A program made the position numbers and the translations under genes. DNA of 39,703 nucleotides from a virus. Positions within the stretch are counted from its first letter, which is position 1; every line of letters starts with the position of its first letter. The DNA is taken from positions 1-39,703 of IMG/VR virus record IMGVR_UViG_3300042465_003836, one strand, 5' to 3'. The notes below the pieces were generated by a model. That model made no database searches. It had not been told where the DNA came from and saw nothing but the letters and a program-made list of their open reading frames with translations. Of this stretch, positions 10,611 to 38,206 are shown piece after piece.

Positions 10611-10662
10611 TCCAGTGCCCCTCTGACGGGCTAAGTCTCCGCTTTTGAGGCGGATCGAGTGT

Positions 10663-10668
10663 TATCGT
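10663..10668 (+). promoter_or_regulatory. -10 element, leaderless late start
   Basis: TATCGT ends 7 bases before GTG 10676, the first gene of the virion module. No Shine-Dalgarno sequence is present. An alternative reading is TTGAGG (10645-10650)-N17-TAGCAA. Confidence 0.5.
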
Positions 10669-10675
10669 AGCAAGT

Positions 10676-10837
10676 GTGGAGTACGAGTCGTGGTCTACGT
10701 GGGTGTTTCGTTGCTGGTTCGCTGATGGTGGTCAGGGCAGGGTGGTGGTTTATGCGGCGTGCGAGTATGATGCTTGGGTGTCGTTTAGAGTGTTGACGGG
10801 TATCAATGTGAGTCTTGATGGTTTGGAGCGTTCGTGA
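10676..10837 (+). CDS. Hypothetical protein, 53 aa
   Basis: GTG 10676 sits 7 bases after TATCGT and the stop overlaps the terminase small-subunit GTG as GTGA. The sequence is aromatic and beta-like (STWVFRCWFADG, RVVVYAACEYDAW). It may be the first translated product of the late transcript. No family recognised. Confidence 0.5.
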   Translation: MEYESWSTWVFRCWFADGGQGRVVVYAACEYDAWVSFRVLTGINVSLDGLERS

Positions 10838-11376
10838 CTAAGCGTGCTGATTTGAAGATGCAGCGTGAGGATAAGCAGACTGGGATTGAGAAGTTTGGTC
10901 TTGATGACACTGCTTTTCTTACTAGTGCTTATAGGAATAGTGTGACTCCTAGCGAGCTGAGTGCGGAGCAGATGGAGGAGGCTATTGAGATGGCGAGCCT
11001 GGGCGCGTTTGAGTCGGCGATTGCTCGTGTGCTTGGCGTGTCGGAGCATACGTTTGTGACAGCATTGCGTGGTGGGCGTTTGCGTGAGAAGCCTTCGTAT
11101 ATCGAGTTCTCGGATAGGTTTTATGAGGCGCGGAAGAAGCATATGAAGCGGAATCTTCGTGTGATGAATGAGGCTGTGGAGGAGGGTGATTGGAAGCCTG
11201 CGGCGTGGCAGCTTGAGCGTAGCTTTGGGTTTCATAAGCAGGAGGTGGTGGAGCATGAGGTTGGGCCGCAGACTCTTTCGTTGATGCAGTTGGCGCAGAT
11301 TCCTATTGAGGATGCGCAGAAGGCGCTTGAGATTGAGGCGGAAGAGGTCGTGGTTGAGCCTGATGATGCTGCGTGA
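10834..11376 (+). CDS. terS: Terminase small subunit
   Basis: 180 residues. A helix-turn-helix lies at about 56-78 (LGAFESAIARVLGVSEHTFVTAL), followed by the EGDWKPAAWQLERSFGFHKQEVVEHE segment typical of phage small terminases and an acidic tail. It recognises phage DNA and positions the large subunit at the packaging site. GTG 10834 overlaps the previous stop, with GGAG 8 bases upstream. Directly precedes the large subunit. Confidence 0.88.
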   Translation: MTKRADLKMQREDKQTGIEKFGLDDTAFLTSAYRNSVTPSELSAEQMEEAIEMASLGAFESAIARVLGVSEHTFVTALRGGRLREKPSYIEFSDRFYEARKKHMKRNLRVMNEAVEEGDWKPAAWQLERSFGFHKQEVVEHEVGPQTLSLMQLAQIPIEDAQKALEIEAEEVVVEPDDAA

Positions 11377-11397
11377 TCCAATGATCCATCCCCTAGT

Positions 11398-13002
11398 GTG
11401 TGGATTGGTGGATCAGCATTGAGTAATGAGCTTGATCGTGCCGCGTTAGAGTTGCGCGCAAAGATGGCTGACCCCGTGTGGAAAGCCAAGAATCTTTTTG
11501 GTTTCGAACCCTGGTCGAAGCAGCGCGAGATTCTTAAGGCGCTTCGTAAGCACAAGCGTGTCGCTGTTCGCTCTTGTCATGGTGTTGGTAAGACGGCAAC
11601 TGCGGCTACGGCTGTGCTTGATTTCATGACGGAAGGCCCGTGCCGCGTCATCACCACCGCGCCCACATGGAGTCAGGTTGAGCAGCTCTTGTGGCGCGAG
11701 ATCGCCGTGCGCCACTCAAAGATCCCTGGTGGCAAGGATGCTTTTGGCAAGATATTCAAGTCTTCGCTAGAAGTACGCTCGGACTGGTTCGCGATGGGGC
11801 TTTCGACGGACAAGCCGGAGCGTTTTCAGGGTCATCACTCTCCCCGCATGATGCTCGTTGTAGACGAGGCTTCTGGTATTGACGAGGCAATCTACGAAGC
11901 ATCGGAAGGTTTCCTTACCGCCGACGAGGCGCGTGTTCTACTGATTGGGAACCCGACTCGACCCGCCGGAACGTTCTACAAAGCGTTCCAAAAAGACTCT
12001 GGCTGGTACCCAGTCCACATGAGCGCCTTCGACGCGCCGTGTTTCACCAACGAGCGCGTATCCAAAGAAGCTCAGCGCGCCCTGATCACGCAAGAATGGG
12101 TGCAGGATGCGAAGCAACAGTGGGGTGAGGACTCTGCGGCATACAAGATTCGTGTTCTGGGCGAGTTTTGTGAGACAACAGGCCGCCAATTCTTCAACTT
12201 CCTCGACAATCTAGCCGCCATACCACACAAGAAGCGTGGTTTTGTGCGTGGAATGCCCGTTCCTGGCGGTCGTATTGAGTTTTATGAGGAGTCTCGCGGC
12301 GGAATGCGCATGTGGGAGACACCACAAGCCGGTGTTCGCTACCTAATCTTTGCTGATGTGGCTGGATCGGTGAGTTTTGACGAGTATGAGCGCCGAGAAT
12401 CCCGCATTGGCGCTGGTGCGGGGTCAGATTACTCGGTTGCGGAGGTATTGCGCCTTGATAATGGCGAGCAAGTCGCTGAAATCCGGTATCGCGCGGATGT
12501 TGACGAGTTCGCAGACGACTTGGCGCGCCTCGGACGCTTGTATAACGATGCGATGCTGGCCGTGGAGCGTAACGGGCCGGGAGCAGCGGTACTTACCCAG
12601 CTGAAGAACGTGATGGGGTATCCGCATATCTGGCGACCACGCAATCCGATTCATATGAAAGCGCGGATGGATCAGACACTAGGGTGGAATACGACTGCGG
12701 CGACTCGACCAATGATGCTTGCCGCGATGCAAGCCGCTATTCGTGACGAGCCGGGTCGGATCAAGAGTGAACTATTGATTGACGAGCTGCGGACGTTTGT
12801 TTTTAGGGATCGGAATGGTAAGGAGCCGCGTCCAGAGGCTGATGAGGGTTGTCACGACGACCTTGTGATGGCTATGGCTGGTGCGCAAGCGGTGTGGCAG
12901 CAAGAGGCTCAATCACCAATTCGTCTTGCTGAAAAACCAAAGCCAGTAGTGGAGGCTTCAATGCAGAAGCGCGCGCCACGATTTGTTGTTGGGCGCGGCT
13001 AG
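11398..13002 (+). CDS. terL: Terminase large subunit
   Basis: 534 residues from GTG 11398 (TTG 11419 is also possible; neither has a clear ribosome-binding site). Walker A is SCHGVGKT (59-66), Walker B is MMLVVDEA (151-158, D156, E157). The C-terminal RNase-H-like nuclease carries D320 in FADVAG, E390 in AVERNGPG and the CHDDLVMA motif (D487, D488). It powers DNA translocation into the prohead and cuts the concatemer. A 12-bp inverted repeat spans its stop codon. Confidence 0.95.
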   Translation: MWIGGSALSNELDRAALELRAKMADPVWKAKNLFGFEPWSKQREILKALRKHKRVAVRSCHGVGKTATAATAVLDFMTEGPCRVITTAPTWSQVEQLLWREIAVRHSKIPGGKDAFGKIFKSSLEVRSDWFAMGLSTDKPERFQGHHSPRMMLVVDEASGIDEAIYEASEGFLTADEARVLLIGNPTRPAGTFYKAFQKDSGWYPVHMSAFDAPCFTNERVSKEAQRALITQEWVQDAKQQWGEDSAAYKIRVLGEFCETTGRQFFNFLDNLAAIPHKKRGFVRGMPVPGGRIEFYEESRGGMRMWETPQAGVRYLIFADVAGSVSFDEYERRESRIGAGAGSDYSVAEVLRLDNGEQVAEIRYRADVDEFADDLARLGRLYNDAMLAVERNGPGAAVLTQLKNVMGYPHIWRPRNPIHMKARMDQTLGWNTTAATRPMMLAAMQAAIRDEPGRIKSELLIDELRTFVFRDRNGKEPRPEADEGCHDDLVMAMAGAQAVWQQEAQSPIRLAEKPKPVVEASMQKRAPRFVVGRG

Positions 13003-13046
13003 GAGATCCGCGAGTGAGCGGGTGAGGGTTAGATTCTCCTAGCCGC
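12995..13046 (+). promoter_or_regulatory. Long inverted repeat at the terL stop
   Basis: GCGGCTAGGAGA (12995-13006) pairs perfectly with TCTCCTAGCCGC (13035-13046) around a 28-base loop that holds a nested CCGC/GCGG hairpin. There is no T-tract, so it is not a classic terminator; RNA processing, stabilisation or attenuation are possible. The CTAGGAG/CTCCTAG core recurs after the capsid gene. Confidence 0.6.
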
Positions 13047-13063
13047 CACGCAACCGTAGCATG

Positions 13064-13069
13064 TATTCT
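13064..13069 (+). promoter_or_regulatory. -10 element, leaderless late start
   Basis: TATTCT ends 6 bases before ATG 13076; no Shine-Dalgarno sequence. Confidence 0.6.
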
Positions 13070-13075
13070 TTTCGC

Positions 13076-13405
13076 ATGAGTAGTAATGGTTTTGTTCCTC
13101 CGGCTGGCGCTCGCGCTGCTGCGCGCCGAGGCCTAGATCTCGTAGCGAAGGGCAAGGCTGGCGGGGGGTTTGAGCCTGCTACTGCTACGCGCGCCCGAAA
13201 AATCGCGGCTGGATCGCCACTGACTCGTGATCATGTGATGCGTATGCACTCATTCTTCAGCAGGCACGCGGTAGATCGTAAGCCTGGGTGGGGTACTCCG
13301 GGTAAGGAGACTCCGGGGTATGTTGCGCATCAGGCGTGGGGTGGCGATGCTGGCGCGTCGTGGGCTTCTGGTCTTGCTCGTAAACTTCGAGAGTCTGGTA
13401 AGTAG
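13076..13405 (+). CDS. Conserved-looking phage protein, 109 aa
   Basis: Start ATG 13076 is chosen because TATTCT lies exactly 6 bases upstream; an upstream ATG (13061) adds five residues. The sequence has a pattern familiar from phage structural loci: AAARRGLDLVAKGKAGG, then SPLTRDHVMRMHSFFSRH, then QAWGGDAGASWASGLARKL. I cannot name the family with confidence. It sits between terminase and portal. Confidence 0.7.
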   Translation: MSSNGFVPPAGARAAARRGLDLVAKGKAGGGFEPATATRARKIAAGSPLTRDHVMRMHSFFSRHAVDRKPGWGTPGKETPGYVAHQAWGGDAGASWASGLARKLRESGK

Positions 13406-13407
13406 GT

Positions 13408-13413
13408 TATAGT
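13408..13413 (+). promoter_or_regulatory. -10 element, leaderless late start
   Basis: TATAGT ends 7 bases before ATG 13421; no Shine-Dalgarno sequence. Confidence 0.6.
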
Positions 13414-13420
13414 TCTGCGT

Positions 13421-13573
13421 ATGGGTATGTCGAAATACGACAAGCTAGTGAAGTCGTTGAGCGCAAAGGGTTCGCGCGATCCTAAGGCGCTTGCTGCGTA
13501 TATTGGTCGCAAGAAACTTGGTGCCGCAGAGTTTCAGCGTAGGGCGGCTGCTGGTCGTCGCAGGGCATCTTAG
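13421..13573 (+). CDS. Small basic protein, 50 aa
   Basis: ATG 13421 follows TATAGT by 7 bases. The product (MGMSKYDKLVKSLSAKGSRD at its start, ending AAAGRRRAS) is Lys/Arg-rich and helical, so it may bind nucleic acid or a capsid surface. Its stop is 15 bases before the next start, which is also leaderless-type. Confidence 0.6.
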   Translation: MGMSKYDKLVKSLSAKGSRDPKALAAYIGRKKLGAAEFQRRAAAGRRRAS

Positions 13574-13575
13574 GG

Positions 13576-13581
13576 TATAGT
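13576..13581 (+). promoter_or_regulatory. -10 element, leaderless late start
   Basis: TATAGT ends 6 bases before ATG 13588; no Shine-Dalgarno sequence. Confidence 0.6.
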
Positions 13582-13587
13582 TCTTAC

Positions 13588-14019
13588 ATGGCAGAGCGCA
13601 TTCCTACCGAATCTATGGCTCGTGGTGAGCGCCGACCAGTTGCAACTTACCCGTATATTGGTGGCAAGAATCGCCCGTTTAGCACTGGTGGTTACACTGA
13701 TACTCGCGGACTCGGCCCAGACCTTCCAGCGGATTTTGGTACGAATGGAACTTATAACTCTGAAAATATTGACAATTCTGTTTTTGGGCCTGGCGGGTTT
13801 CTTCTTAGCGCAACTCAAACTGCCCGACGTAAAGACGTTTCAAACATTAATCGCAGCAATTACAACAAAGCACAAGGGCCAGGGTCGTCTTCTTCGCGCC
13901 CAAAGTACCCCACAAATCAGCGCGATGAAGTGCGCGAAGGTGCAAAGGTTCTAAGCAAGGTTCTTGGCAAGCGCAAGGAACGTCGCGAAGGCGGAACGCC
14001 AAAGGACAATCGTAAGTAA
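13588..14019 (+). CDS. Hypothetical Gly/Asn-rich protein, 143 aa
   Basis: The first half is rich in Gly, Pro, Thr and Asn and looks unstructured (YPYIGGKNRPFSTGGYTDTR). The second half is basic, with a KVLSKVLGKRKERR helix. No family recognised; the location suggests a minor virion component. Confidence 0.65.
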   Translation: MAERIPTESMARGERRPVATYPYIGGKNRPFSTGGYTDTRGLGPDLPADFGTNGTYNSENIDNSVFGPGGFLLSATQTARRKDVSNINRSNYNKAQGPGSSSSRPKYPTNQRDEVREGAKVLSKVLGKRKERREGGTPKDNRK

Positions 14020-14342
14020 TGGCTCCGCTTGATAAGCTCAAGAAGAAGAACGCTCCGACCGTCAGCATCGCCTTGATGCGCATGAAGCCCATGCGTCGCG
14101 AAAACATGATGAGTGAAGACTCGTCGTACGACAAGCCCGAAGACGACATGGAAGAAATGCCGATGCGCGAAGAAGCTCGCGAAGAGTCGTACGAGGAATG
14201 TCCGAAGTGCGCAAAGTATCAGATGCTGATTGGCGAAGCCCTCGCGTACTACATGCAGCACAAGGAAGATTCGGAAGAGAAGCCTGATACGAGCGAAGTA
14301 GAAGCAGAAGTCGAGTCCGAGATGGATTCGGAGAAGGCGTAA
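14019..14342 (+). CDS. Hypothetical acidic protein, 107 aa
   Basis: ATG 14019 shares its A with the previous stop; AAAGGA at 14001-14006 is a distant ribosome-binding site. A basic N terminus is followed by an extremely Glu/Asp/Met-rich region with one CPKCAKYQMLIGEALAYY segment (CXXC) and an acidic tail (VEAEVESEMDSEKA). It may be disordered outside the middle helix. Confidence 0.65.
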   Translation: MAPLDKLKKKNAPTVSIALMRMKPMRRENMMSEDSSYDKPEDDMEEMPMREEAREESYEECPKCAKYQMLIGEALAYYMQHKEDSEEKPDTSEVEAEVESEMDSEKA

Positions 14343-14346
14343 CTGC

Positions 14347-14352
14347 TACACT
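14347..14352 (+). promoter_or_regulatory. -10 element, leaderless late start
   Basis: TACACT ends 7 bases before ATG 14360; no Shine-Dalgarno sequence. Confidence 0.6.
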
Positions 14353-14359
14353 AAATCGT

Positions 14360-14692
14360 ATGAGCGTACCTCCGAACATGATGGGCGCAGGCCCCGCGAT
14401 GATGGCTCCTCCCGCGCCGATGCCTCCGGCTCCTAGCGGGTTTGTTCCTCCGGCTGCTGCTGCTCTGCCTGGTATGGCGCAGCTCGCTGAGGCTCAGTCT
14501 GCTCAGATGATGCAGATTCAGGATGAGATGAATAAGCAGATTATGATGCTTATTGCTTCGCTTCCTACGCCGAATCCGGCTGGTGAGGCTGCTGTTAGTG
14601 CGCCGCTTACGCCGATGATGAGTGGTGCGGATACTAGTAATGCTGCTCCTATGGGCGATATGCCAATGGGTGGCGGTACTGGTGCCTACTAA
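14360..14692 (+). CDS. Met/Pro/Ala-rich protein, 110 aa
   Basis: Low-complexity Met, Pro, Ala and Gly at both ends (APPAPMPPAPSGFVPPAAAA; MGDMPMGGG) flank a helix of about 35 residues with Gln/Met spacing (AEAQSAQMMQIQDEMNKQIM). It may be a flexible virion linker. Its last 11 bases overlap the next gene. Confidence 0.6.
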   Translation: MSVPPNMMGAGPAMMAPPAPMPPAPSGFVPPAAAALPGMAQLAEAQSAQMMQIQDEMNKQIMMLIASLPTPNPAGEAAVSAPLTPMMSGADTSNAAPMGDMPMGGGTGAY

Positions 14693-14963
14693 TAATTTTG
14701 CTTCGAGCGAAGCGAGTATTCTTTCGCCGTACACTCGCGCGGTAGCGATTACCCCGAGTGATACGACGGATCTTGATGAGATTCCGCGAGCATTGAATAT
14801 TCACAAGGGAACTGGTGGTTCGACTACGGATATTCGTGTTCTCTTGTGGGGCGATGCCAACCCGGTGACGTTTACGTTCCAGGTTGGTTTTGTGGTGCCG
14901 CTTCGCGCTCGTCGCGTGTATGCGACTGGTACGGACGCTACTCGTATCATCGCCCTCTACTGA
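14682..14963 (+). CDS. Spike-base-like structural protein, 93 aa
   Basis: GTG 14682 (MPTNNFASSEASI) is chosen because protein similarity begins here. RAVAITPSDTTDLDEIPRAL followed by VTFTFQVGFVVPLRARRVYA and TDATRIIALY is the pattern of small phage and gene-transfer-agent spike-base proteins (RCAP_rcc01079-type, from memory). A small beta-rich trimerising component of fibre or spike is likely. Confidence 0.6.
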   Translation: MPTNNFASSEASILSPYTRAVAITPSDTTDLDEIPRALNIHKGTGGSTTDIRVLLWGDANPVTFTFQVGFVVPLRARRVYATGTDATRIIALY

Positions 14964-14969
14964 TACACT
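14964..14969 (+). promoter_or_regulatory. -10 element, leaderless late start
   Basis: TACACT ends 6 bases before GTG 14976; no Shine-Dalgarno sequence. Confidence 0.6.
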
Positions 14970-14975
14970 ATCCGC

Positions 14976-15656
14976 GTGCCGTACATCGCTCCAACTCCCA
15001 GTACCGTAGCTCCTGGCGATACGTTTCCAGCTACGGCGTATAACATTCTTAGTGCGGATATTGCGGATCACGAAACGCGGATTAAGACGGGCGTTGAGTC
15101 GTATACGACGGCTCAGAAGACTGCGTTGACTGGTGTTTCGACGGGTACTTTGATTTACGACTCAACCCTTAACCAGTTGCAGATTTGGAATGGGTCGGCG
15201 TGGCTTAGGTTTGTGAACTCTAGCCCATCGGCGTATATCCAGCGCACAACTTCGTATAGTTACACTGTTTCAAATACCGCTATTACGTATGAGTCGGCTC
15301 TTTACGACACCAATTCCATGTGGTCGGCGGGAACGCCAACTACTTTGACTATTAAAACTGCTGGCGTATATCTTGTGTCTTTCAAGAGCACACTTAGCAT
15401 GACGACTGTGACAAATCCTGTTCCTGCAATTCTTTTGAATAATACCGCCGGATGGGGGTTTTCTCCGGTTAATGTTGGTGGAGGAGCGGCGTATGGAGTT
15501 TTTTCTGCGGTTATCCCGTGCGCTGTTAATGATCAGATTACGACCCAATGGCAGTGGAGTGCAATTACTGGTTCGGGACAAATTACTGGTTCTTCTTCAA
15601 TTCAGTCGTATCTTCATACAAGTCTTTCGGCAACAATGATTGCTAGGACTACATAG
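14976..15656 (+). CDS. Fibre-like protein with C1q-like end
   Basis: 226 residues. The N terminus (PYIAPTPSTVAPGDTFPATA) and DHETRI are typical of virion-anchoring fibre starts. LIYDSTLNQLQIWNGSAWLRF is a short beta motif seen again in the 25607 fibre. The C-terminal 140 residues (TLTIKTAGVYLVSFKSTLSM) read like a C1q/TNF jelly roll, a common receptor- or sugar-binding fold. It lies upstream of the portal, away from the main tail genes. Confidence 0.6.
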   Translation: MPYIAPTPSTVAPGDTFPATAYNILSADIADHETRIKTGVESYTTAQKTALTGVSTGTLIYDSTLNQLQIWNGSAWLRFVNSSPSAYIQRTTSYSYTVSNTAITYESALYDTNSMWSAGTPTTLTIKTAGVYLVSFKSTLSMTTVTNPVPAILLNNTAGWGFSPVNVGGGAAYGVFSAVIPCAVNDQITTQWQWSAITGSGQITGSSSIQSYLHTSLSATMIARTT

Positions 15657-16351: not shown

Positions 16352-16354
16352 TCA

Positions 16355-18061
16355 ATGATTGAATCCTCCGACCAGAAGAAACTCTTAGACCGATTCCAGA
16401 AGTGCTGGCAACAGTCTGACCAGAAGCACCGGCAGAATCGAGAGTTCTACAAGAAGTGCGACGATGGTTACAACGCAATCATCAAGCCATCCAACAGTGA
16501 ATGGCAAAGTGACCTGCACCCGCCCTACGCACTCCAAATCATTGACATCATTGAGTCCAATATCGTGGATGATGATCCTGATGTGCGCGTAATCGCAGCT
16601 CAGCCGCAGTACGAAGATGGCGCTGAAATGCTGACGCACATTCTGAAGCAGCAGCGATACAAGGATAACTTTGGTGAGAAGTACGCACTGTTTGTAAAGC
16701 AGGCTCTGATTCGTGGCATTAGCGTGGCGAAGATCCCGTGGCTAGAAGAATGGCGCAAGGTACCGACCCCGAACTACAAGCCTGACCCGCTCGGGATGCG
16801 CAAGCCGTACGAAACAGTGCCGCATCGCCAGCAGCCAGGCTTTGTCAACGTGGACGTAAACCACTTCTTGTGGGACTCCAACGCCACCAGCCTTGATGAT
16901 GCTGAGTACGTGTTCTTTCGCACGTACGAATCAAAGCGGAGTCTTGAAGCGTCGGGTGTGTACGAGAATCTTGACAAGATCGTTGAGATGACGACGACAA
17001 TTTCTCCCGACGACAAGGAGCGTCGTAATCGAGTTGAGGTTGTGGAGTGGTGGTGGCGTGACGGCAACATGATGCGCCTTACCGTTGTCGCCAACCGCAA
17101 CACGATCATCCGTGATTGTGCCAGCCCGTTCTGGCACGGCGAGTTTCCTTTCACCGTCGCAAACATCATGCCGACTCCGTTCGCTTTTCGTGGCAAGAGC
17201 ATCGTTGAGATCATTAGTGATCTTCAGATTGCGCTGTGGGAGCTTCAGAATCAGCGCATTGACAACTCTAAGTTCATGGCGAACGCCGCAATGTTCGTTG
17301 ATCCGAACACGGAGCAGCAAGACATTCGCTTGTATCCTGGCGCTGTCATTCCGTTGCGCCCGGATCAGGTGCAAGCGTTCCAGCCGAATATCAGCATTCT
17401 TCAGCCCAGTGTTCAGGCTGAGGAAATGCTGAAGGGTGATCTTCAGAACATCACGGGCGCAGTTGGCTATCTGAGTGGCGCGTCCAATACGCAGATTGAC
17501 CAGACCACCGCAACTGGCATCTCTGTCATCAGCAACATGGCAGCCAAGCGCATCATCAGGATGAAGCAGCAGATCATGTACGCGATGCGTCGAGCAGGCG
17601 AACAGCAGATCGCGCTTAATCAGCAGCTCCTTCCCGGCCCGGTCGCGGTGCGTATTGATCGTGAGGCTGAGAATGATTGGAAGCTCGTGTCGCCTACGGA
17701 TATTCAGGGTCAGTACGATTATCGTGTTGAGGATGCGAATGAGAGTTTGATGCGGCAGGAGCGTCGTGCTGAGGCTCTTGCGTTTGCGAATTGGTTTGGG
17801 CAGAACTACATGCTTCTTATGCAGAGTGGCGTTACTCCGAATATGCGTCGAGTCGCAGAGGATGTGATTCAAGCGTTTGATGAAGATCCGAAGGAGTATC
17901 TTGGTAACGCCGAGCAGGTGCAGAACCCGCCTTTGGTCGGAGGGCCGGGTCAGTCACAGCCGGAACCGACAACCCCAATGGGCGCAGCGCCTGGGACTCC
18001 TAGCATTCCGCCGGAGATTCTTGCTGCTCTCGGGGCCGGTTCCGGCCAACCAATCCAGTAA
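16355..18061 (+). CDS. Portal protein
   Basis: 568 residues. The sequence (HPPYALQIIDIIESNIVDDD, GEFPFTVANIMPTPFAFRGK, SIVEIISDLQIALWELQNQR, then TATGISVISNMAAKRI) follows the portal pattern of short-tailed and related phages. Twelve copies would form the ring at one capsid vertex through which DNA passes and onto which the tail docks. A Pro/Gly-rich tail ends it. The ATG is 4 bases after the previous stop; TATTGC lies 7 bases upstream. Scaffold and capsid genes follow, as expected. Confidence 0.9.
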   Translation: MIESSDQKKLLDRFQKCWQQSDQKHRQNREFYKKCDDGYNAIIKPSNSEWQSDLHPPYALQIIDIIESNIVDDDPDVRVIAAQPQYEDGAEMLTHILKQQRYKDNFGEKYALFVKQALIRGISVAKIPWLEEWRKVPTPNYKPDPLGMRKPYETVPHRQQPGFVNVDVNHFLWDSNATSLDDAEYVFFRTYESKRSLEASGVYENLDKIVEMTTTISPDDKERRNRVEVVEWWWRDGNMMRLTVVANRNTIIRDCASPFWHGEFPFTVANIMPTPFAFRGKSIVEIISDLQIALWELQNQRIDNSKFMANAAMFVDPNTEQQDIRLYPGAVIPLRPDQVQAFQPNISILQPSVQAEEMLKGDLQNITGAVGYLSGASNTQIDQTTATGISVISNMAAKRIIRMKQQIMYAMRRAGEQQIALNQQLLPGPVAVRIDREAENDWKLVSPTDIQGQYDYRVEDANESLMRQERRAEALAFANWFGQNYMLLMQSGVTPNMRRVAEDVIQAFDEDPKEYLGNAEQVQNPPLVGGPGQSQPEPTTPMGAAPGTPSIPPEILAALGAGSGQPIQ

Positions 18062-18095
18062 TTCCGACTAACCGACTATCCGACCGGAGGACAAG

Positions 18096-18974
18096 ATGAG
18101 CGAGTTTGAAGAGACTACTGACGAGCGCGACCCGATTGCAGACGCGATTCTGCATGGTGGCGTTCAGCAGTCTGAGCCTGTTGAGAGTGGCGCTGATACG
18201 CCTGTTGAGCAGAGCGCGCCTGAAGAGTTGATTCTTGGCAAGTTCAAGAGCGTTGATGACGTTGTTGAAGCCTATAAGAATCTTGAGTCGCACAACACGC
18301 AGACGAACCAGCGCCTGTCCGAACTCGAAGCACTGCTGATGCAGGATGATGAGGAAGAGGACGCGGTTCAGCCGTGGGGCATGACGTTCAATGGCGAGCC
18401 TGAGAATGAGGAACAGCTCATTGGTTGGGCTGAGCGTGACGCTGGCGCTGCCGCACAGTGGGCGATGGCGAACGCGAATCGCATCCCGTCTGAGACAGTG
18501 AACTCCTTGTGGGAGCATTGGTTTGAGACTAAGCCTGCTGAGGCGAATGCGTGGTATGTGCAGCAGCAGACGCAGCAGATTCGTCAGCAGTACGAGAACG
18601 AGCTGGCTACGTTGCGCGAGCAGATCACTCCGCTTCGTGATCAGCAGACGCAGACGCTGTTTGAGTCTAGCCTTGAGTCGCTTGAGTCGCAGATCCCTGA
18701 TCTTGCCGACTACTCGGAGAAGATCCAGGCGTACATTGACAACATTCCCGTTGACCAGCTTCATCTAGCATTCTTCCCACAGGGCATGGATACGCCGGAG
18801 AAGATTCAGAATGGCGTAAAGAGCCTGTATGCGATTGTTCGTATGCAGGAGCAGCCCGTTCAGCAGCAGGCAGTTGAGCAGCCGAGCGCGTTTACGCAGT
18901 CGCGTCAGGGCGTGGCTGACACTGGCCCGGTGGATTATGCTGCTAAGATCAATGCTGCAATCCTGAATGGATAG
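18096..18974 (+). CDS. Capsid scaffolding protein
   Basis: 292 residues, very acidic, with Gln-rich coiled-coil stretches (QQQTQQIRQQYENELATLRE) and a short C-terminal helix (YAAKINAAILNG). Composition, size and position between portal and major capsid protein identify an internal scaffold; the family assignment rests on that rather than on a catalytic motif. GGAGG lies 8 bases before ATG 18096. Confidence 0.82.
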   Translation: MSEFEETTDERDPIADAILHGGVQQSEPVESGADTPVEQSAPEELILGKFKSVDDVVEAYKNLESHNTQTNQRLSELEALLMQDDEEEDAVQPWGMTFNGEPENEEQLIGWAERDAGAAAQWAMANANRIPSETVNSLWEHWFETKPAEANAWYVQQQTQQIRQQYENELATLREQITPLRDQQTQTLFESSLESLESQIPDLADYSEKIQAYIDNIPVDQLHLAFFPQGMDTPEKIQNGVKSLYAIVRMQEQPVQQQAVEQPSAFTQSRQGVADTGPVDYAAKINAAILNG

Positions 18975-19059
18975 CAGTTCTGACCATGTGTGGCCCAACC
19001 CGACCGTTGGACAACCGCAGAATCCCGTAAACCTCTCTACACAGGAGAAAACTTAGGCT

Positions 19060-20217
19060 ATGCCTACTATCCTCACTGGGGTCGTTGACGACGCGGACAT
19101 TCTGTCGAACCAGCGCGTCGTTGATATGTCCCCCACCATCGCGCAGCTTGAGCCGGACGAGGCTCCGCTGACGACGATGCTTCAGAAGATCGGCAAGCGC
19201 GCAGCTTACTCGCAGAAGGTCGAGTGGCTGAGCGACGAGCTGATGCCGCGCCTCACGACGCTTGCTGCGTCTGCGGCTTCTGGCGACACGAACATCTCGG
19301 TCGCTACCGGCACGGGTGGTTACTTCCGTCCGAACGACGTTGTGCGCTTCGCCTCCACGGGCGAGAACGCTGTCGTTTCGGCTACGGCTGCTAACGCCAT
19401 CACCGTCACGCGCGCTCTTGGCGGAGTCACTGCTCTCTCGGCTGCGAGCGGCATTGACCTCGTGAAGATCGGCAACGCGGCTGCTGAGGGCGCGACCCTC
19501 GGTACCCTCGTGCAGACGAAGAAGGTTGCTAACTACAACTACGCGCAGATCCAGCGTGATCCGTTCGGCTTTACGAACACGCTGGTCGCGTCGAAGCTGT
19601 ATGGCGGCCCGGAGCCTGCTAACGAGGCGAAGAAGAAGCTGATTGAGCATAAGCGTCAGCTTGAGAACTCGCTGTTCTGGGGCGTTCGCGACCTGAACAC
19701 GAGCGGTAGTGCCCCGATTGGTTACGTCGGTGGTATCTACCAGTACGTCACCTCGAACCTCACGACCGGCGTTGGCACGCTGACGGAGAGCGTTTTTGAA
19801 ACGTTCCTCCGCAAGGCGTTCCGCTATGGCTCGCAGAACAAGGTCATGTTCTGCTCGCCGCTCGTCGCGTCGGCTCTGTCCTCGTTCCCGCAGGGCAAGC
19901 TCGCTCCCCCGGCTCCGAGCATTGACACGTACGGCGTGTCGCTGAAGGAGTACCAGAGCGCGTCGGGTGCGAAGGTGCAGATCATGGTGAAGCGCGACTG
20001 GTACGACTTCCAGTCCACCGCTAACCAGTACGGCGGCATCGGCGTGGTCGTGGACATGGAGGACGTGACGATGCGTCCTCTGCGCGACACGGTGCTGAAG
20101 CCGGATCGTCAGGCCAACGATGAGGACTCCGTGAAGCAGGAGTACCTCACCGAGTGGTCGTTCGAGCTTGGTAGCGAGAAGAAGCACGCTATCATCTCGG
20201 GCATCACCGGCTACTAA
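19060..20217 (+). CDS. Major capsid protein (DUF5309/SU10-type)
   Basis: 385 residues. The opening (DMSPTIAQLEPDEAPLTTML) and the KVEWLSDELMPRLTTLA stretch match the DUF5309 family of HK97-fold capsid proteins. The middle (GDTNISVATGTGGYFRPNDV) looks like an inserted beta domain. Codons here are more C-rich than in neighbouring late genes, consistent with high expression. CAGGAGA precedes the ATG. A perfect 14-bp hairpin follows the gene. Confidence 0.88.
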   Translation: MPTILTGVVDDADILSNQRVVDMSPTIAQLEPDEAPLTTMLQKIGKRAAYSQKVEWLSDELMPRLTTLAASAASGDTNISVATGTGGYFRPNDVVRFASTGENAVVSATAANAITVTRALGGVTALSAASGIDLVKIGNAAAEGATLGTLVQTKKVANYNYAQIQRDPFGFTNTLVASKLYGGPEPANEAKKKLIEHKRQLENSLFWGVRDLNTSGSAPIGYVGGIYQYVTSNLTTGVGTLTESVFETFLRKAFRYGSQNKVMFCSPLVASALSSFPQGKLAPPAPSIDTYGVSLKEYQSASGAKVQIMVKRDWYDFQSTANQYGGIGVVVDMEDVTMRPLRDTVLKPDRQANDEDSVKQEYLTEWSFELGSEKKHAIISGITGY

Positions 20218-20228
20218 GCCAACCCAAT

Positions 20229-20266
20229 CTAGGAGGGGAGTCCCGTGGTGGTGACTCCCCTCCTAG
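20229..20266 (+). terminator. Perfect 14-bp hairpin after capsid gene
   Basis: CTAGGAGGGGAGTC pairs perfectly with GACTCCCCTCCTAG around a 10-base loop. The following bases (TCCAACTCTTCTAC) are only moderately T-rich, so it could be a leaky terminator or a mRNA-stabilising hairpin that sets high capsid expression relative to downstream genes. Confidence 0.7.
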
Positions 20267-20297
20267 TCCAACTCTTCTACCGACCAGGAGAAACCTA

Positions 20298-20942
20298 ATG
20301 CGTTTTGTCAGTCGCCACGCTAATTACACGTTTATTGCTCGTCCCGATAAGGTTCAGATGGTTCTGACGACTAATGGGACGATGACTCCGCAGACTGTTG
20401 TGGCGGCGATTCAGTGTGATTTTCAGCATGGTCTTGTGCGTCCTGAGGAGGCTGAGATGGCTAAGCAGCATTGGCTTGGCTTTGGTCGCCGCGAGGATGG
20501 CACGGCTATTGCGTATGGCGCTACGCCTACGACGGTCGTTGGTGTGGTGAATGGTCAGGCGCATGATGGTTGGAATCCTGACCTGATGTTCAGCGTGTTT
20601 GATACGGACACGATCCCGAATGAGGAGGATCGAACGTATACGGAGAAGCGCCTTGTGGAGGATGCCAGCAATGGTAATCACTACATTCAGGTGACGGGTA
20701 AGAAGCTTGATCCGCCGTGGCCGACGTACGAGCAGATGCAGGGCAAGAAGGGTCAGCCGACGAGTGCGCTGATTTGCAACATGATTCGCGAGGGCGGGTA
20801 CGATCCTGATTATGTGATCGCGTACGAGCTTCAGCGTGAGCGTCCTCGGTACGACATTCCGAAGGCGATTGAGGCGTTGAAGGTGGAGCTGGCGGCTGAG
20901 GCTGCTGAGAATGCTTCGCTTCAGCGCGAGATTCCCGCTTAG
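20298..20942 (+). CDS. Hypothetical protein, 214 aa
   Basis: ATG 20298 follows CAGGAGAAA. The N-terminal half is beta-like (YTFIARPDKVQMVLTTNGTM), the middle mentions a possible substrate-like loop, and the C terminus is a helical Glu/Ala stretch (IEALKVELAAEAAENASL). Immediately downstream of the capsid protein, so a head component or decoration protein is possible; I recognise no family. Confidence 0.65.
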   Translation: MRFVSRHANYTFIARPDKVQMVLTTNGTMTPQTVVAAIQCDFQHGLVRPEEAEMAKQHWLGFGRREDGTAIAYGATPTTVVGVVNGQAHDGWNPDLMFSVFDTDTIPNEEDRTYTEKRLVEDASNGNHYIQVTGKKLDPPWPTYEQMQGKKGQPTSALICNMIREGGYDPDYVIAYELQRERPRYDIPKAIEALKVELAAEAAENASLQREIPA

Positions 20943-20944
20943 TT

Positions 20945-22510
20945 ATGCATCACAACATTGCCGCGTATGAGGCGGCTGTGCGTCGTCATGTGACGGTTTT
21001 GATTCCGTGGCATGGTGAGAATGAGGATCTTCTTAGAGAGACTCTTCGCTCGTTGCCTCGTGGTGTCCAGGTGATGATTGCGAAGAATGCTGGGAAGCAT
21101 GAGATGGCTACGGCGTTGAATGGTGCGCTGAGCATGGTGAAGACGAAGTACGTGTTTCTCATGGGGTCTGATGATGTTGTTGACTCTAAGACGTTGTGGC
21201 GTTTGTGGGAAGCCGCGATTGATTACGATGGTTCGTATCCGTGGATGCTTGGCTTTGGAGCTGATCGGTTTAGGTTTAATGCTGAGCCGTGGTCGCCGCT
21301 TCGTGTTCAGGATCAGAACATTTGTGGGATCATCATGATTAAGACGGATTGGTTGCGGCGTGTTGGTGGTTGGACTGATTCGGTGATTGAGGATTGGGAT
21401 CTTGTGTATCGCTTGGCGAAGGCGGGGTGCCGGTTGGCTCCTGCTCCGCTGGCGCGATACGGGTATCGGCAGCGCCATGATGGGTTGCATCGCTCGACGG
21501 TGCGTGAGGCTGCGCGTATGCGTATGACTTGGAGTGATCTTGCGCCGTACGAGGTTCGAGAGTCAGTGCCTGCGGTGTTTTATGAGTGGCGTATTGAGGG
21601 TACTGGGTATGTGCGGTGCGAGTTGCCTTCGCGTACGACTCGGAGTGTTGTGCGGATGAGTCTTGATTCGCGTGATTCGCATGAGGCGCGAGCGTGGGTG
21701 TATCAGTATCCGAATAGTGATGTGCAGGAGTTTTGGGATACTGGTGCGGAGCTTGGGAAGAAGCGCGTGATTGATGTGGATGACAATTACTTGTCAAGCG
21801 AGCTAGGCAATGTTGTTGGCGCGTATCACAAGAAGAATGGTGATGTGTGGGCGAGTCGCCAAGCGTCGCATAAGCGAATGGTTGAAGAAGCCGACTACAT
21901 TATTTGCGCCACGCCAGCTCTGGTTGATGTTTACTCTAAGGTGAATCCGAATGTGGTGTTGTGTGAGAACACGGTTGATCCGGCTGATTGGATCAAACCA
22001 TCATCACGCAAGAAGATTGTTGGCTGCGTGTTCAGCGCGAATCATCTTGGCGACATGCATCTCGTGGAAGATGCGATGCGGTACGCGAGCATGAATGGTG
22101 CTGAGGTTCAGATCGTTGGGCTTGACCCTGGGTGGGATTTTGCGTATACGCATATTGGGTTTACGCCTAGTGTGGCAGCGTATCGGCGCGTGTTGTCTAA
22201 GTGGACGATTGGTTTAGCGCCAGTTGTGGACAATGATGTTACTCGGTGCAAGAGTGATCTCAAGTGGCTTGAGTTCACGATGAGTGGTGCTGCTCTTGTT
22301 GCTAGTGATGCTGAGGCGTATAAGCGAGTGCCAGACGATTCGATTATCAGAATCAAGGACGCTAAGGGGTTTAGTAGTGCGGTCGCTGAGCTTCTCAGTG
22401 ACGAGACTGAACGGAAGCGTATGATTCGTCGCAGTATGTTTCATGTGAAACAGGATCGCATGGTTGGTAATGAGTCGTTGCGGAGCAGGTATACTACTGC
22501 ACTAGCATGA
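20945..22510 (+). CDS. Two-domain glycosyltransferase
   Basis: 521 residues. Residues about 15-190 are a GT2-type GT-A domain: VTVLIPWHGENEDLLRETL, nucleotide-site MGSDDVVD (D76, D77), and GGWTDSVIEDWDLVYRL. Residues about 260-520 look like the C-terminal half of a GT-B (GT4-like) enzyme: CATPALVDVY, VLCENTVDPADW, KWLEFTMSGAALVASD. It lacks a convincing ribosome-binding site. Set among head genes, it may glycosylate a virion protein or modify host surface sugars. Donor and acceptor are unknown. Confidence 0.82.
   Translation: MHHNIAAYEAAVRRHVTVLIPWHGENEDLLRETLRSLPRGVQVMIAKNAGKHEMATALNGALSMVKTKYVFLMGSDDVVDSKTLWRLWEAAIDYDGSYPWMLGFGADRFRFNAEPWSPLRVQDQNICGIIMIKTDWLRRVGGWTDSVIEDWDLVYRLAKAGCRLAPAPLARYGYRQRHDGLHRSTVREAARMRMTWSDLAPYEVRESVPAVFYEWRIEGTGYVRCELPSRTTRSVVRMSLDSRDSHEARAWVYQYPNSDVQEFWDTGAELGKKRVIDVDDNYLSSELGNVVGAYHKKNGDVWASRQASHKRMVEEADYIICATPALVDVYSKVNPNVVLCENTVDPADWIKPSSRKKIVGCVFSANHLGDMHLVEDAMRYASMNGAEVQIVGLDPGWDFAYTHIGFTPSVAAYRRVLSKWTIGLAPVVDNDVTRCKSDLKWLEFTMSGAALVASDAEAYKRVPDDSIIRIKDAKGFSSAVAELLSDETERKRMIRRSMFHVKQDRMVGNESLRSRYTTALA
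22490..22495 (+). promoter_or_regulatory. -10-like element before the 22507 gene
   Basis: TATACT ends 11 bases before ATG 22507, which would give a leader of only a few bases. Weaker fit to the leaderless rule than the other sites. Confidence 0.35.
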
Positions 22511-23591: not shown

Positions 23592-23594
23592 CGT

Positions 23595-25607: not shown

Positions 25608-27055
25608 TGGCTGAGAAGTTTGATTCTCCGGCGATGCCGGGTGTGAAGCCGATGCCGGAGCCGCCTGATCCTCGGATCATTCCGTTGGATCGGCAGACGG
25701 CGTTGACGCATCAGCAGGTTGAGCAGGTGCGGTTTGGTTTGGGTGATACGGGGCCGTTGGCTCAGGCTGTGATGAATGCGAATGTGCCTGCGTTGGCGAA
25801 GCAGTTGGCGACGGGTGCGGTGTCGTGTTTGTCTTCTCGTCGTCCTGCTGATCCTGTGGTGGGTCAGATGATTTATGAGACTGATACGAAGTTGACTAAG
25901 TTTTGGGATGGGACGGCGTGGGTGAATGGTGCTGGTAGCTCTGCTGTTCTTACGCCTGTTGGATCAATTGTTCCGTATGCGGGTACGGATGTGTCTACTC
26001 CTGCTGGGTGGCTATTTTGTGGTGGGCAGGCTGTTTCGCGTACGACGTATGCTGATTTGTTTGCGGTAGTTGGGACGACGTACGGGTCTGGTGATGGTAG
26101 TACGACGTTTAATGTGCCGGATCTTCGTGGTCGAGTTGTTGCTGGTAAAGACAATATGGCTGGATCTGCTGCTAGCCGTCTTACTGCTGGTACGTCGGGT
26201 ATTACTGGTACGACGCTTGGCGCTGCTGGTGGTAATGAAGCGTTGCATTCGCATACGCATACCCAAAACGCCCATAGCCACCAATTTATACCTAAGTATG
26301 GTGGGTCGCGTGGAACAACCGTCAACATGGATGTTCCGGGTTTCGGAAATGATTATGGCCTTGACAATAGTTTTATTGGAAGCACTACGGCAACAAACCA
26401 GAACACTGGTGCTGGCGCTTCTCAAAACGTTCAGCCAACTCTTGTCACAAACTACATCATCAAAGCTACGGCCGATACGGTTACTGGGTATGCTGGCGCG
26501 ACACTGACTGGTTCTGCTGGTGGGGATCTTACGGGAACGTACCCAAACCCGACGATTTCTTCGCTGAGTAATCTTCCTGTTCATAACAGTAATTCGACGC
26601 TTAGTTTCCGTACGTCAAATGTTGAGCGTCTTGGTATTGATGCTAGTGGGCGCGTGACTAGGCCGTTTCAACCTATGTTTTCTGCGGCTGGTGCCACTAC
26701 TCGCCAAGCGCCTAATGATCTTTCCGCTTGGGGGGTAACTCCTACAAACATAGGAAGCAATTTTAACGCAACAAATGGAAGGTTTACTGCCCCAATTGCT
26801 GGATCATACTTTTTTACTGCTTCGGGTTTTGCGGAAACAGCATTCCCCGCCCCAACGGAGTTCCAGTTTTACATAAATGGTGCAGCGCCTTATAGTTCTC
26901 AATACCGCGGATATACTGATCGTGGTGGATATAGCGCGGTAAGCACAATATCGGCGATATTCCCACTTGCCGCTAATGATTATGTGACATGCCGGGTTAC
27001 TGCCAACGGTTTTCACGGCAACGCGGCGACCGTTTTTGCGGGCCACCTCGTATAA
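25607..27055 (+). CDS. Tail-collar fibre with C1q-like tip
   Basis: 482 residues. Residues 118-183 (VGSIVPYAGTDVSTPAGWLF, then FNVPDLRGRVVAGKDNM) are a phage tail-collar domain. HSHTH (214-218) and HSH (223-225) match the metal-binding histidines of collar fibres. LTGTYPNPTI follows, and the C-terminal 130 residues (RFTAPIAGSYFFTASGFAE) resemble a C1q/TNF jelly roll. It is the best candidate for host recognition. GTG 25607 overlaps the previous stop. Confidence 0.85.
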   Translation: MAEKFDSPAMPGVKPMPEPPDPRIIPLDRQTALTHQQVEQVRFGLGDTGPLAQAVMNANVPALAKQLATGAVSCLSSRRPADPVVGQMIYETDTKLTKFWDGTAWVNGAGSSAVLTPVGSIVPYAGTDVSTPAGWLFCGGQAVSRTTYADLFAVVGTTYGSGDGSTTFNVPDLRGRVVAGKDNMAGSAASRLTAGTSGITGTTLGAAGGNEALHSHTHTQNAHSHQFIPKYGGSRGTTVNMDVPGFGNDYGLDNSFIGSTTATNQNTGAGASQNVQPTLVTNYIIKATADTVTGYAGATLTGSAGGDLTGTYPNPTISSLSNLPVHNSNSTLSFRTSNVERLGIDASGRVTRPFQPMFSAAGATTRQAPNDLSAWGVTPTNIGSNFNATNGRFTAPIAGSYFFTASGFAETAFPAPTEFQFYINGAAPYSSQYRGYTDRGGYSAVSTISAIFPLAANDYVTCRVTANGFHGNAATVFAGHLV

Positions 27056-27065
27056 TAGGAGAATT

Positions 27066-27326
27066 ATGTCTGAGATCATCATCACAATTAGCGACTCCGA
27101 AGCCGCCGCGCTTGCGCACGTAATGGCTGATCCGCAAGAGTGGGCGCAGAACGCCATCAGCGAACGCGCACGTATTGCAACAGATGAGATTGTGCAGCGC
27201 GAGATCGCACGCATGGTTGCTGATCCAAACGTAACGGAGATTCCAGCGACTGCTGCTGAGATCGTTATGGCGGCAGAACTACCAGCACCGCCTAGCATGG
27301 AACTTCCCGTGCCTAGCGAGGCATAG
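27066..27326 (+). CDS. Small tail-fibre companion protein, 86 aa
   Basis: ATG 27066 with TAGGAG 6 bases upstream. Pattern AALAHVMADPQEWAQNAISE, RARIATDEIVQREIARMVAD occurs in small proteins encoded beside tail fibres in many phages. Helical, acidic end. Possible assembly factor or minor fibre component; not proven. Confidence 0.65.
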   Translation: MSEIIITISDSEAAALAHVMADPQEWAQNAISERARIATDEIVQREIARMVADPNVTEIPATAAEIVMAAELPAPPSMELPVPSEA

Positions 27327-27327
27327 G

Positions 27328-27333
27328 TATACT
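27328..27333 (+). promoter_or_regulatory. -10 element, leaderless late start
   Basis: TATACT ends 6 bases before GTG 27340; no Shine-Dalgarno sequence. Confidence 0.6.
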
Positions 27334-27339
27334 TCTACT

Positions 27340-27597
27340 GTGCCTTCCACTCTCTACGCACCCCAGCGCGTCAACTACAAACCGACCGCACCCAACGCGA
27401 ACCCCGAAACCGACCCGCGCAAAATCCTCCTCGACTCGCTGAAAAAGCTTGGGGATAAGAAGACGCAGGGAATTATGGATCAGTCGCCTGCTGCTGTGAT
27501 GGGAGCTGTGACGAATCCTTCGGATGTTGCTAGTGGGATGAAGGGCAATATTCTTGGCGGGGTGGAGACTCGCGCTCGGATGATGGGTGGCAGGTAG
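27340..27597 (+). CDS. Hypothetical protein, 85 aa
   Basis: GTG 27340 with TATACT 6 bases upstream. Pro/Asn-rich start, then a helix (DPRKILLDSLKKLGDKK). The codon style switches from C-ending at the 5' end to G/T-ending within the gene. Possible minor virion protein. Confidence 0.6.
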   Translation: MPSTLYAPQRVNYKPTAPNANPETDPRKILLDSLKKLGDKKTQGIMDQSPAAVMGAVTNPSDVASGMKGNILGGVETRARMMGGR

Positions 27598-28793
27598 TGG
27601 CTCCTGCTATCAAGATCCCTAAAGTCGAGAAGACTAATACGCCTAGAGGTATGGAAGGCGTGCGCCCTGGTTCGCCTAAGGCGATTAAGGCGGGGTATAA
27701 GCCTCCGACTACTCCTAGGCGACCGGGTGGGAGTAGGACTCCGTTTGCTGTTTCGTTTAATGCTGATGGTACGACTACGTTAAAGCCGCCTGCCGCTCCT
27801 AAGGCTGTTGCTCCTCCCGCTGCGCCAACTACGACGACTGTTACTACGCCGGGTACGCCTCCTAATGCTGCTTGGTGGCAGGGACAGTACGCGAGCGATC
27901 CGTCGTTTCTCCTGACTGATCCGGTGCTTCGCGCAGCTCAGAATCAGACAAGCACTAATTATGGGTACACAATCAATCGTGACACGACGGAGGGTTCTCC
28001 GACTAAGGGTCAGGCGTACTATCGAGCGCCAAAGATTGATCCCGTAACGAAGAAGCCAGTGCTTGACGAAACGGGTAAGCCGGTGTATCTCGCAACTGGG
28101 ATTCTTCAGACGTTTGATGATGCTGGCAAGCCGGTCTATAAGGATTCAACGGGCAAGGTGTACGCACCTGCGGATCTTGAGATGGAAATTAATCGCATCG
28201 CTAAGGGGCAAGAGGGTTATCTTGAGGGCGCGCTTGGTGCTGCTGAGGCTACGAGTGAGCGTAATCAGTTTGGTATTGGTGATGTAGCTGCTCGGGCGGG
28301 TGCGCGTCGTAGTGGTATGCGTGGTCAGGCTAGTGCGGCTGAGACTGGTGCGTTGCAGTCAGCGTTGTCTGGTTTGACGAAGAGGGCTGCTGGCGAGTTG
28401 ACGGGTATTGATAAGCAGTACGCTGATTTGTATTCGAATATCTTTAAGACGCTTGCTCCGCAGGCTGCTGCGTTTGCTGCCCCGACAACGACTGAGGTTC
28501 CGGTTGCTCCGGTTGCTCCGGCTGCTGAGGCGATTCCTCCTGCGGCTGCTCCGAATACGAATCCTGTAACTGCTACTGGTCTTGTTGCTGGTCAGCAGCT
28601 TAGTGGTGGGCCGCAGGGTCAGTTTATGGGTCAGGCGAATGCGATTGTTGCTCAGCGTGATGCGCCGTATTCTCAGAAGGTTGCTTCGTTGAATGCGTTG
28701 AAGCGTTTTGCTTTGACTCCTCAGCAGCTTAAGTGGATTAGTGATTGGATTGAGAATAATAAGCCGAAGCCGCCTAAGGGTAGGGGCAGGTAG
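27597..28793 (+). CDS. Putative internal virion protein, 398 aa
   Basis: GTG 27597 overlaps the previous stop. Residues 1-90 are Pro/Thr/Lys-rich and disordered (PPAAPKAVAPPAAPTTTTVT); a middle domain follows, then Ala-rich helices (GDVAARAGARRSGMRGQAS) and VPVAPVAPAAEAIPPAA. Composition and position ahead of the giant protein suggest an ejection or core protein. Confidence 0.6.
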   Translation: MAPAIKIPKVEKTNTPRGMEGVRPGSPKAIKAGYKPPTTPRRPGGSRTPFAVSFNADGTTTLKPPAAPKAVAPPAAPTTTTVTTPGTPPNAAWWQGQYASDPSFLLTDPVLRAAQNQTSTNYGYTINRDTTEGSPTKGQAYYRAPKIDPVTKKPVLDETGKPVYLATGILQTFDDAGKPVYKDSTGKVYAPADLEMEINRIAKGQEGYLEGALGAAEATSERNQFGIGDVAARAGARRSGMRGQASAAETGALQSALSGLTKRAAGELTGIDKQYADLYSNIFKTLAPQAAAFAAPTTTEVPVAPVAPAAEAIPPAAAPNTNPVTATGLVAGQQLSGGPQGQFMGQANAIVAQRDAPYSQKVASLNALKRFALTPQQLKWISDWIENNKPKPPKGRGR

Positions 28794-28796
28794 AAT
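28791..28796 (+). promoter_or_regulatory. -10 element, leaderless late start
   Basis: TAGAAT overlaps the preceding stop and ends 6 bases before ATG 28803; no Shine-Dalgarno sequence. Confidence 0.6.
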
Positions 28797-28802
28797 CTAG
28801 TC

Positions 28803-30176
28803 ATGCCGCAGTTTGACCTTAACCCATCTGCCAATACTCAGGTTCTTGGCGATCCCAATTCTGGGGACTATAATACTTACAAGAAAGTTAAGGGGAAGCG
28901 TAGGCCTGTTGCGCAGAAAAAGTATTCTGGTATTAGCGCGCGGCAAGAAGCAGCTAACGCCGCAAAGGCCGCTAAGAATCAAGCCACGCAGGGCGGGGCT
29001 TCGTCTGGTGCTAGTGCTGGTGGTCGAGGCGCTGGTTCGGGTGGTGGTCGTGGCGGCAACAATAACAATCAGCAGTCGAACGCTCCCGCTGCGTACAATC
29101 CGCTTACCGCAGAATTCAAGACTCCTGCACAGCTCCGCAAGGAAGCAGCTGAACTAGCCGCGCTGAGTGTTGCTAGTGAGGATATTCTTCGCCAGCAGCA
29201 GGCGCGAGAAGAAGCAGGCTTGACTGGGCTGACGAGTGCGCTTAGTGGGCGGCTTGGTGATATTGCTGCTCAGCAGACCGCTGGGCTTCAAGGCTTTGGT
29301 TCGTTGTATGGTCGTCTTGCTGGGTCTGCTCAGACGGCTGGTGGCGCTGCGCTAGCTGCGGCTGGCGCTGATCCTGGGCTTGCTGCTGGTGCGAATCCGC
29401 TGGTTGCTGGGCAGTTGGCGAATCTTTCTGCGCCGCTTATGGGGTATCAGCCTGCTGCTGAGGCGATTGGTCAGCGTCTTATTGGTGCTTCGCAGGGCGC
29501 GTTGGGTAAGGCGCTTATGGAGCGTTCGGCGCAGTTGAGTGCGAATACGGCGAAGTATCTTCGTGATCTTCAGGATACTGAGATTCAGCGTGCGATTAGT
29601 CAGGGTACGCTTGCGCAGAATGAGGCGCGTCTTGGGTTGACTGCTGAGGAGAATGAGTGGGAGCGTCAGGTTGATGCTGCTCGTATTCAGCAAGGCAATC
29701 AGCGTCTAAGCATTCAAGCTCAGAAGGCTGCTGCTCAGATTCAGAAGGATCTTGCTAAGAGTACGGCTGATGCTGCTAAGAACATCAAGGATGCTAAGGG
29801 CGATATTCTTCTGAATGTTCAGAAGTGGACGAAGCCGAAGACTGTTAAGACTGGCGAATACAATTGGAAGATTACGATTGGTGACAATACTTATTCGTCT
29901 ACGGGGCGTACTGTTGATGAGGCGAAGCGTAATCTTGGTAGTGCTATTGACCAGGCTGTTGAGATTGATGGTTATACGCAGGGTAGGGAAGTGTCGAGAA
30001 GTGTGGTTCCGAATAATGAGGATGTGATTAGGGTTCTTCAGCCGATTCTTGTGAATGCTGGTATGACTCCGAGGAATGCGCGTGCTTGGATTCTTACGAA
30101 TGTTCTTCGGTATTCGCCGTCTTCGCCTGCTCCTTCTGGCGCGTTTATGGGTGGGGTCGGCGGTACCGTTGCTTAG
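28803..30176 (+). CDS. Putative internal virion protein, 457 aa
   Basis: N-terminal basic/disordered segment with a Gly run (GGRGAGSGGGRGGNNNN), then long Ala/Gln helices (LRQQQAREEAGLTGLTSALS; NQRLSIQAQKAAAQIQKDLA), and a short beta domain (YNWKITIGDNTYSSTGR). Similar style to the previous gene; consistent with short-tailed phage ejection proteins that enter the cell with the DNA. Confidence 0.6.
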   Translation: MPQFDLNPSANTQVLGDPNSGDYNTYKKVKGKRRPVAQKKYSGISARQEAANAAKAAKNQATQGGASSGASAGGRGAGSGGGRGGNNNNQQSNAPAAYNPLTAEFKTPAQLRKEAAELAALSVASEDILRQQQAREEAGLTGLTSALSGRLGDIAAQQTAGLQGFGSLYGRLAGSAQTAGGAALAAAGADPGLAAGANPLVAGQLANLSAPLMGYQPAAEAIGQRLIGASQGALGKALMERSAQLSANTAKYLRDLQDTEIQRAISQGTLAQNEARLGLTAEENEWERQVDAARIQQGNQRLSIQAQKAAAQIQKDLAKSTADAAKNIKDAKGDILLNVQKWTKPKTVKTGEYNWKITIGDNTYSSTGRTVDEAKRNLGSAIDQAVEIDGYTQGREVSRSVVPNNEDVIRVLQPILVNAGMTPRNARAWILTNVLRYSPSSPAPSGAFMGGVGGTVA

Positions 30177-30180
30177 CCGC

Positions 30181-30186
30181 TAGAAT
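30181..30186 (+). promoter_or_regulatory. -10 element, leaderless late start
   Basis: TAGAAT ends 6 bases before GTG 30193; no Shine-Dalgarno sequence. Confidence 0.6.
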
Positions 30187-30192
30187 ACTTGG

Positions 30193-35623: not shown

Positions 35624-35630
35624 ACTGTAG

Positions 35631-37269: not shown

Positions 37270-37297
37270 CTTCCACCGAACTCTACGAGGAGGCATC

Positions 37298-38191: not shown

Positions 38192-38206
38192 GGAAGGAGG
38201 TGACTG

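Follow-up and report, generated by a model that had tools for sequence, protein, structure and literature searches.

RESULTS AND DISCUSSION

Gene content of the window and the nine late starts

The window, by which we mean the whole stretch of DNA analyzed here, is the 39,703-base virus record IMGVR_UViG_3300042465_003836 (IMG/VR). Its last ~140 bases (39563–39703) duplicate the first ~140 (1–141) with a few mismatches and carry the same exonuclease gene; because of this terminal repeat, the record is probably a near-complete circular map, or a terminally redundant one, joined from mixed strains. Searches against PHROGs matched the two terminase subunits (large and small), a podophage-type portal/head-tail adaptor, the major capsid and tail collar proteins, an endolysin, a holin, and RecT. 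Megablast against cultured phages gave no match to the window, an Rfam search gave none either, and about 100 closely related viral loci were recovered; the family is one of uncultured podophages. Among the early genes, positions 1553–2491 encode a Gfo/Idh/MocA-type oxidoreductase.

The first-pass annotation had reported nine late genes in which a TANNNT hexamer ends 6 or 7 nt upstream of an ATG or GTG start codon. All nine hexamers are present, on the plus strand. After a non-coding gap of ~500 nt, the first late ORF (53 aa; 10661–10837 including the box) begins at GTG 10676, 7 nt from G-N-TATCGT (hexamer at 10663), a box retained in the homologues of the relatives G001, G005, and G014. ATG 13076, which opens a 109-aa phrog_2859 gene (13064–13405), lies 6 nt from TATTCT (hexamer at 13064), a box without a G two bases upstream of the hexamer (position −2). 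Two short genes come next, each preceded by G-N-TATAGT: ATG 13421 (hexamer at 13408, 7 nt; 50 aa; 13406–13573), whose homologues are of the same type in seven of the eight long relatives having one, with a shifted start in one of these, and ATG 13588 (hexamer at 13576, 6 nt; 143 aa; 13574–14019), for which no homologue was called in 14 long relatives. ATG 14360 (110 aa; 14345–14692) stands 7 nt from G-N-TACACT (hexamer at 14347), and GTG 14976 (226 aa; 14962–15656) stands 6 nt from TGA-TACACT (hexamer at 14964), where the TG of the preceding TGA stop also serves as the extended −10.

The remaining three boxes all have the 6-nt spacing. GG-TATACT (hexamer at 27328) precedes GTG 27340 (85 aa; 27326–27597) and is retained as aggTATACT in diverged loci. 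At ATG 28803 (457 aa; 28789–30176), the preceding TAG stop forms the first half of the −10 in GG-TAGAAT (hexamer at 28791). GC-TAGAAT (hexamer at 30181) precedes GTG 30193, the start of a 1763-aa product (30179–35484) that, by size and position only, is a probable internal virion protein. A motif-blind gene caller picked the same start at eight of the nine boxes; the exception was ATG 13061, taken instead of 13076, and relatives whose upstream sequence differs favor 13076. As had been stated, Shine-Dalgarno sequences are missing from these starts (0/9 matched the pattern used, with 13076 judged by eye).

Two further starts, 15656 and 16355, had been proposed as additional promoters with imperfect boxes, a proposal that found no support for this window. 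The start at 15656, with its candidate TAGGAC, shares bases with the stop codon of the preceding gene, and the start at 16355, with TATTGC, lies 3 nt past such a stop, so both genes look translationally coupled, as they mostly are in the relatives, where a few have the true motif. A TATACT 11 nt upstream of 22507 lies within the upstream coding sequence and was set aside.

That fewer than one match would be expected by chance at 25 late starts was borne out, as shuffling of the upstream sequences gave a mean of 0.72, and none of 20,000 shuffles reached the nine observed. At the same spacing, the motif preceded internal in-frame ATG/GTG codons in only 8 of 553 cases (binomial P ~7e-11) and ATG/GTG codons of the minus strand in 7 of 852. 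By offset, the late starts of the window have six TANNNT at 6 nt, three at 7 nt, and 0–2 elsewhere.

Conservation of the signal among relatives

Genes of the relatives were called with a simple, motif-blind caller based on codon usage only, in a set comprising the window and 107 loci, some of which share contigs. Removal of starts at least 70% identical upstream left 454 non-redundant starts, and 14 long relative genomes were also analyzed one by one. The spacing tally against controls, which had been suggested as a check, was strongly positive: TANNNT ended 6 nt from the start in 49 cases and 7 nt in 16, compared with ~5 at a typical other offset. Thirteen of the 14 long genomes were enriched, with 4–9 such starts each against ~1 expected. 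The most distant one, G008 (L168, L169), whose capsid is ~54% identical, has none; either its host or its late strategy may differ.

The 65 sites share more than the search pattern. The start codon is ATG or GTG in 64, and a G that was not part of the pattern, and that the first-pass annotation had missed, occupies position −2 in 52 (80%, 1.0 bit). When TANNNT lies at other offsets, this G is found in 63 of 277 cases (Fisher P ~1e-17). The base before the G is most often T, as in a TGn-type extended −10, and the hexamer consensus is TAtacT, or G-N-TAtacT with its flank. No −35 element was seen, as no column further upstream, to −34, exceeds 0.35 bit in the 65 sites. The first T of the hexamer falls ~12 bp upstream of the start codon. 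Where the upstream gene lies at least 6 nt away or there is none, a Shine-Dalgarno sequence is present at 3 of 62 box-bearing starts vs. 63 of 210 others (P ~1.5e-5). Conservation of a promoter-like sequence at start codons is established in this family.

Three probable modes of gene start

In the window and the 14 long relatives, boxes were found at 50 of 245 homologous late starts, at none of 67 early ones, and at none of 72 in the right arm (early and right-arm genes together, 0/139). Starts that are homologous are not independent of one another, and Fisher values for them serve as description. They also follow gene spacing: 45 of 95 starts with a gap of 6–40 nt have one, vs. 1 of 169 in overlapping or abutting pairs. 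At orthologous junctions, the relatives swap the box for stop-start coupling. For gene 14976, the leaderless type occurs in the window, G004, G006, and G013 and the coupled type in G002, G003, G007, and G014; 15656, coupled in the window, is leaderless-type in G002, G003, and G014; and the portal gene 16355 is mostly coupled, with a box in G007, G010, and G012.

The genes around the capsid form a contrasting set (18085–20942, plus strand). A TANNNT box is absent from the gene in the scaffold position (18096), the major capsid gene (19060), and 20298, both here and in every relative examined that carries them. They had been credited with normal ribosome-binding sites, which is correct for 18096 and 20298; at 19060 AGGAG stands 12 nt from the start, an unusually long distance. 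Directly past this region, still inside the structural module, positions 20945–22510 encode a protein of 521 aa that has two glycosyltransferase domains and is present in most close relatives.

Given the junction swaps and the boxless genes of the capsid region, the mixing of translation modes proposed earlier stands, but with three modes rather than two: leaderless, Shine-Dalgarno, and stop-start coupling. At junctions without a Shine-Dalgarno sequence, coupling and the putative leaderless promoter look like two alternatives. The suggestion that leaderless starts belong to minor structural genes is plausible, since 18096, 19060, and 20298 lack the box in the relatives, though for most genes of the leaderless type no function is assigned.

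The probable host

The lysis genes, from the endolysin (36532) to the holin (38207; 36532–38386, plus strand), both have Shine-Dalgarno sequences and no TANNNT box, and they give a clue to the host. The endolysin matches Actinomyces phages only (three records), and the holin Arthrobacter phages only (39/39); most matches of the NlpC/P60 protein are to Mycobacterium and Streptomyces phages. From the matches of the lysis proteins an actinobacterial host is likely, although not proven. A capsid search of bacterial genomes for a host found none, and a terminase search of bacterial genome contigs gave matches that were partial and mostly acidobacterial and were therefore not used as host evidence. 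The actinobacterial lineage is known for TANNNT leaderless genes (PMC3160421, PMC3890552; see also PMC3898074). The boxes themselves are also a host clue.

Comparison with known systems

The usual picture of phage structural genes is that of a long operon, leadered and equipped with ribosome-binding sites. T7, a podophage of similar size, likewise places several promoters, the class III ones, within its late array, and T7 uses its own polymerase and leadered Shine-Dalgarno mRNAs; none of its 47 starts has the motif. The start-associated sequences of cluster K mycobacteriophages are reportedly also a short signal repeated before many gene starts; those are said to be Shine-Dalgarno-type sites, whereas the signal described here resembles a promoter −10.

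Controls comprised a small, hand-chosen set of nine actinophages (phiC31, PA6, BFK20, Min1, Molivia, Decurro, Av-1, Giles, and P19), T7, and the first 50 kb of the Thermus phage P23-45. Pooled, these eleven had the motif at 18 of 551 starts, and in the seven for which an expectation could be taken from other offsets, nine were seen and ~8 expected. Giles has five motif starts and P19 three, so sporadic leaderless genes probably occur in other actinophages. None of the five in Giles is in the rightward head-tail array as annotated, and a run of such starts through the late genes was found in none of the nine cultured actinophages. P23-45, an unrelated phage of an unrelated host, resembles the present case in that its middle and late promoters are described as −35-independent and of the extended −10 type (PMC7403470); in its first 50 kb there is no TANNNT peak at 6–7 nt (3 of 85 starts, ~2.2 expected).

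Leaderless TA-led genes, known from Actinobacteria and Deinococcus-Thermus (PMC3160421; PMC12340547; PMC3898074), likewise have a TANNNT −10 that ends 6–7 nt before ATG/GTG and no Shine-Dalgarno sequence. TANNNT ~12 bp upstream marks such genes, which make up >20% of genes in Actinobacteria (PMC3160421), and in C. glutamicum 33% of mRNAs are leaderless, with AUG/GUG starts, and TAnnnT precedes 97% of transcription starts (PMC3890552). The bacterial genes are expected to be operon-proximal, PMC3160421 arguing that a polycistron can have no leaderless gene other than its proximal one, whereas here they would be repeated in one packed late array, alternating with coupling.

Interpretation of the boxes

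The best reading, to which we give a probability of about 85%, is that the late operon contains a series of leaderless promoters of the extended −10 type read by the host sigma factor. The TANNNT boxes would be −10 elements without a −35, recognized by the host's RNA polymerase when it carries the primary sigma factor, and polymerase probably starts at them. As each box lies 6–7 bases before a start codon, each mRNA should begin at its own start codon, the A or G of which would be +1, and a subset of the late genes would have leaderless mRNAs. The promoters would be placed serially where the upstream neighbor is ~6–40 nt away; overlapping genes would use stop-start coupling, and those of the capsid region would rely mostly on Shine-Dalgarno sequences. 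Leaderless mRNA, use of the primary sigma factor, and the actinobacterial host are all inferred from sequence.

In a refinement of this reading, the promoters are real and are made late-specific by a phage late factor, which could be a phage-encoded sigma or, like gp39 of P23-45, a protein that displaces sigma region 4. The missing −35 and the restriction of the boxes to the late module are compatible with such a factor, and there is a precedent, in that the extended −10 middle and late promoters of P23-45 are less affected by gp39 (PMC7403470). Against it, none of the early proteins tested, most of which are of unknown function, matched a sigma or anti-sigma family, and no recognizable candidate for a protein displacing region 4 was seen among them. 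No additional factor is required either, because in published actinobacterial leaderless promoters, too, TANNNT is the main mark. We regard the refinement as possible but rather doubtful, and hold the same tentative view of the fuller picture, a late module that is a chain of leaderless units, each transcribed independently, exchangeable junction by junction with coupling, and late-specific through a phage factor.

The boxes could instead be translational signals, for example for reinitiation, or AU-rich start contexts of a non-Shine-Dalgarno kind, since they sit in short intergenic gaps right past stop codons. The sharp 6/7-nt spacing, the hexamer consensus TAtacT, and the G of the extended −10 instead agree with recognition by a sigma-70-family factor, and the box is nearly always missing from overlapping or abutting genes, making this explanation improbable. 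That the boxes are a by-product of stop codons (TAA and TAG supply TA) and compact gene packing is hardly credible and was rejected for most sites: it agrees with 28803, whose box includes the upstream TAG, and with 14976, which takes TG from TGA, but the stop is reused as TA at only 2 of 65 non-redundant sites, and with reuse excluded 6–40-nt gaps still hold 43 boxes at 6/7 nt vs. at most four at any other offset.

With the serial leaderless promoters as the preferred reading, the mechanism is a known one and its deployment is unusual: a whole phage family seems to put leaderless promoters inside its late operon, and our literature search on leaderless late genes in phages found nothing equivalent. 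If the chain and the phage factor were both true, they would amount to a late-expression strategy undescribed for tailed phages in the literature searched. In its junctions the family provides a natural collection of sites where a promoter in one relative stands in for translational coupling in another, and with it a way to test whether leaderless genes must be operon-proximal, as has been proposed. The box also helps to call gene starts correctly in uncultured phages, as at 13076.

Two further features were noted in the long non-coding gaps that flank the structural module. Upstream of the late module, 10458–10493 can form an intrinsic-terminator-like hairpin, AAACCTTGTG...CACGAGGTTTTTG. Each of the two gaps also contains a paired C-tract (10494–10517 and 35608–35630), made up of ~8–10 C, a short break, and 8 C; relatives retain CCCCCCCCAAACCCCCCCC ahead of the NlpC/P60 gene, and the tracts could possibly form a G-quadruplex on the other strand.
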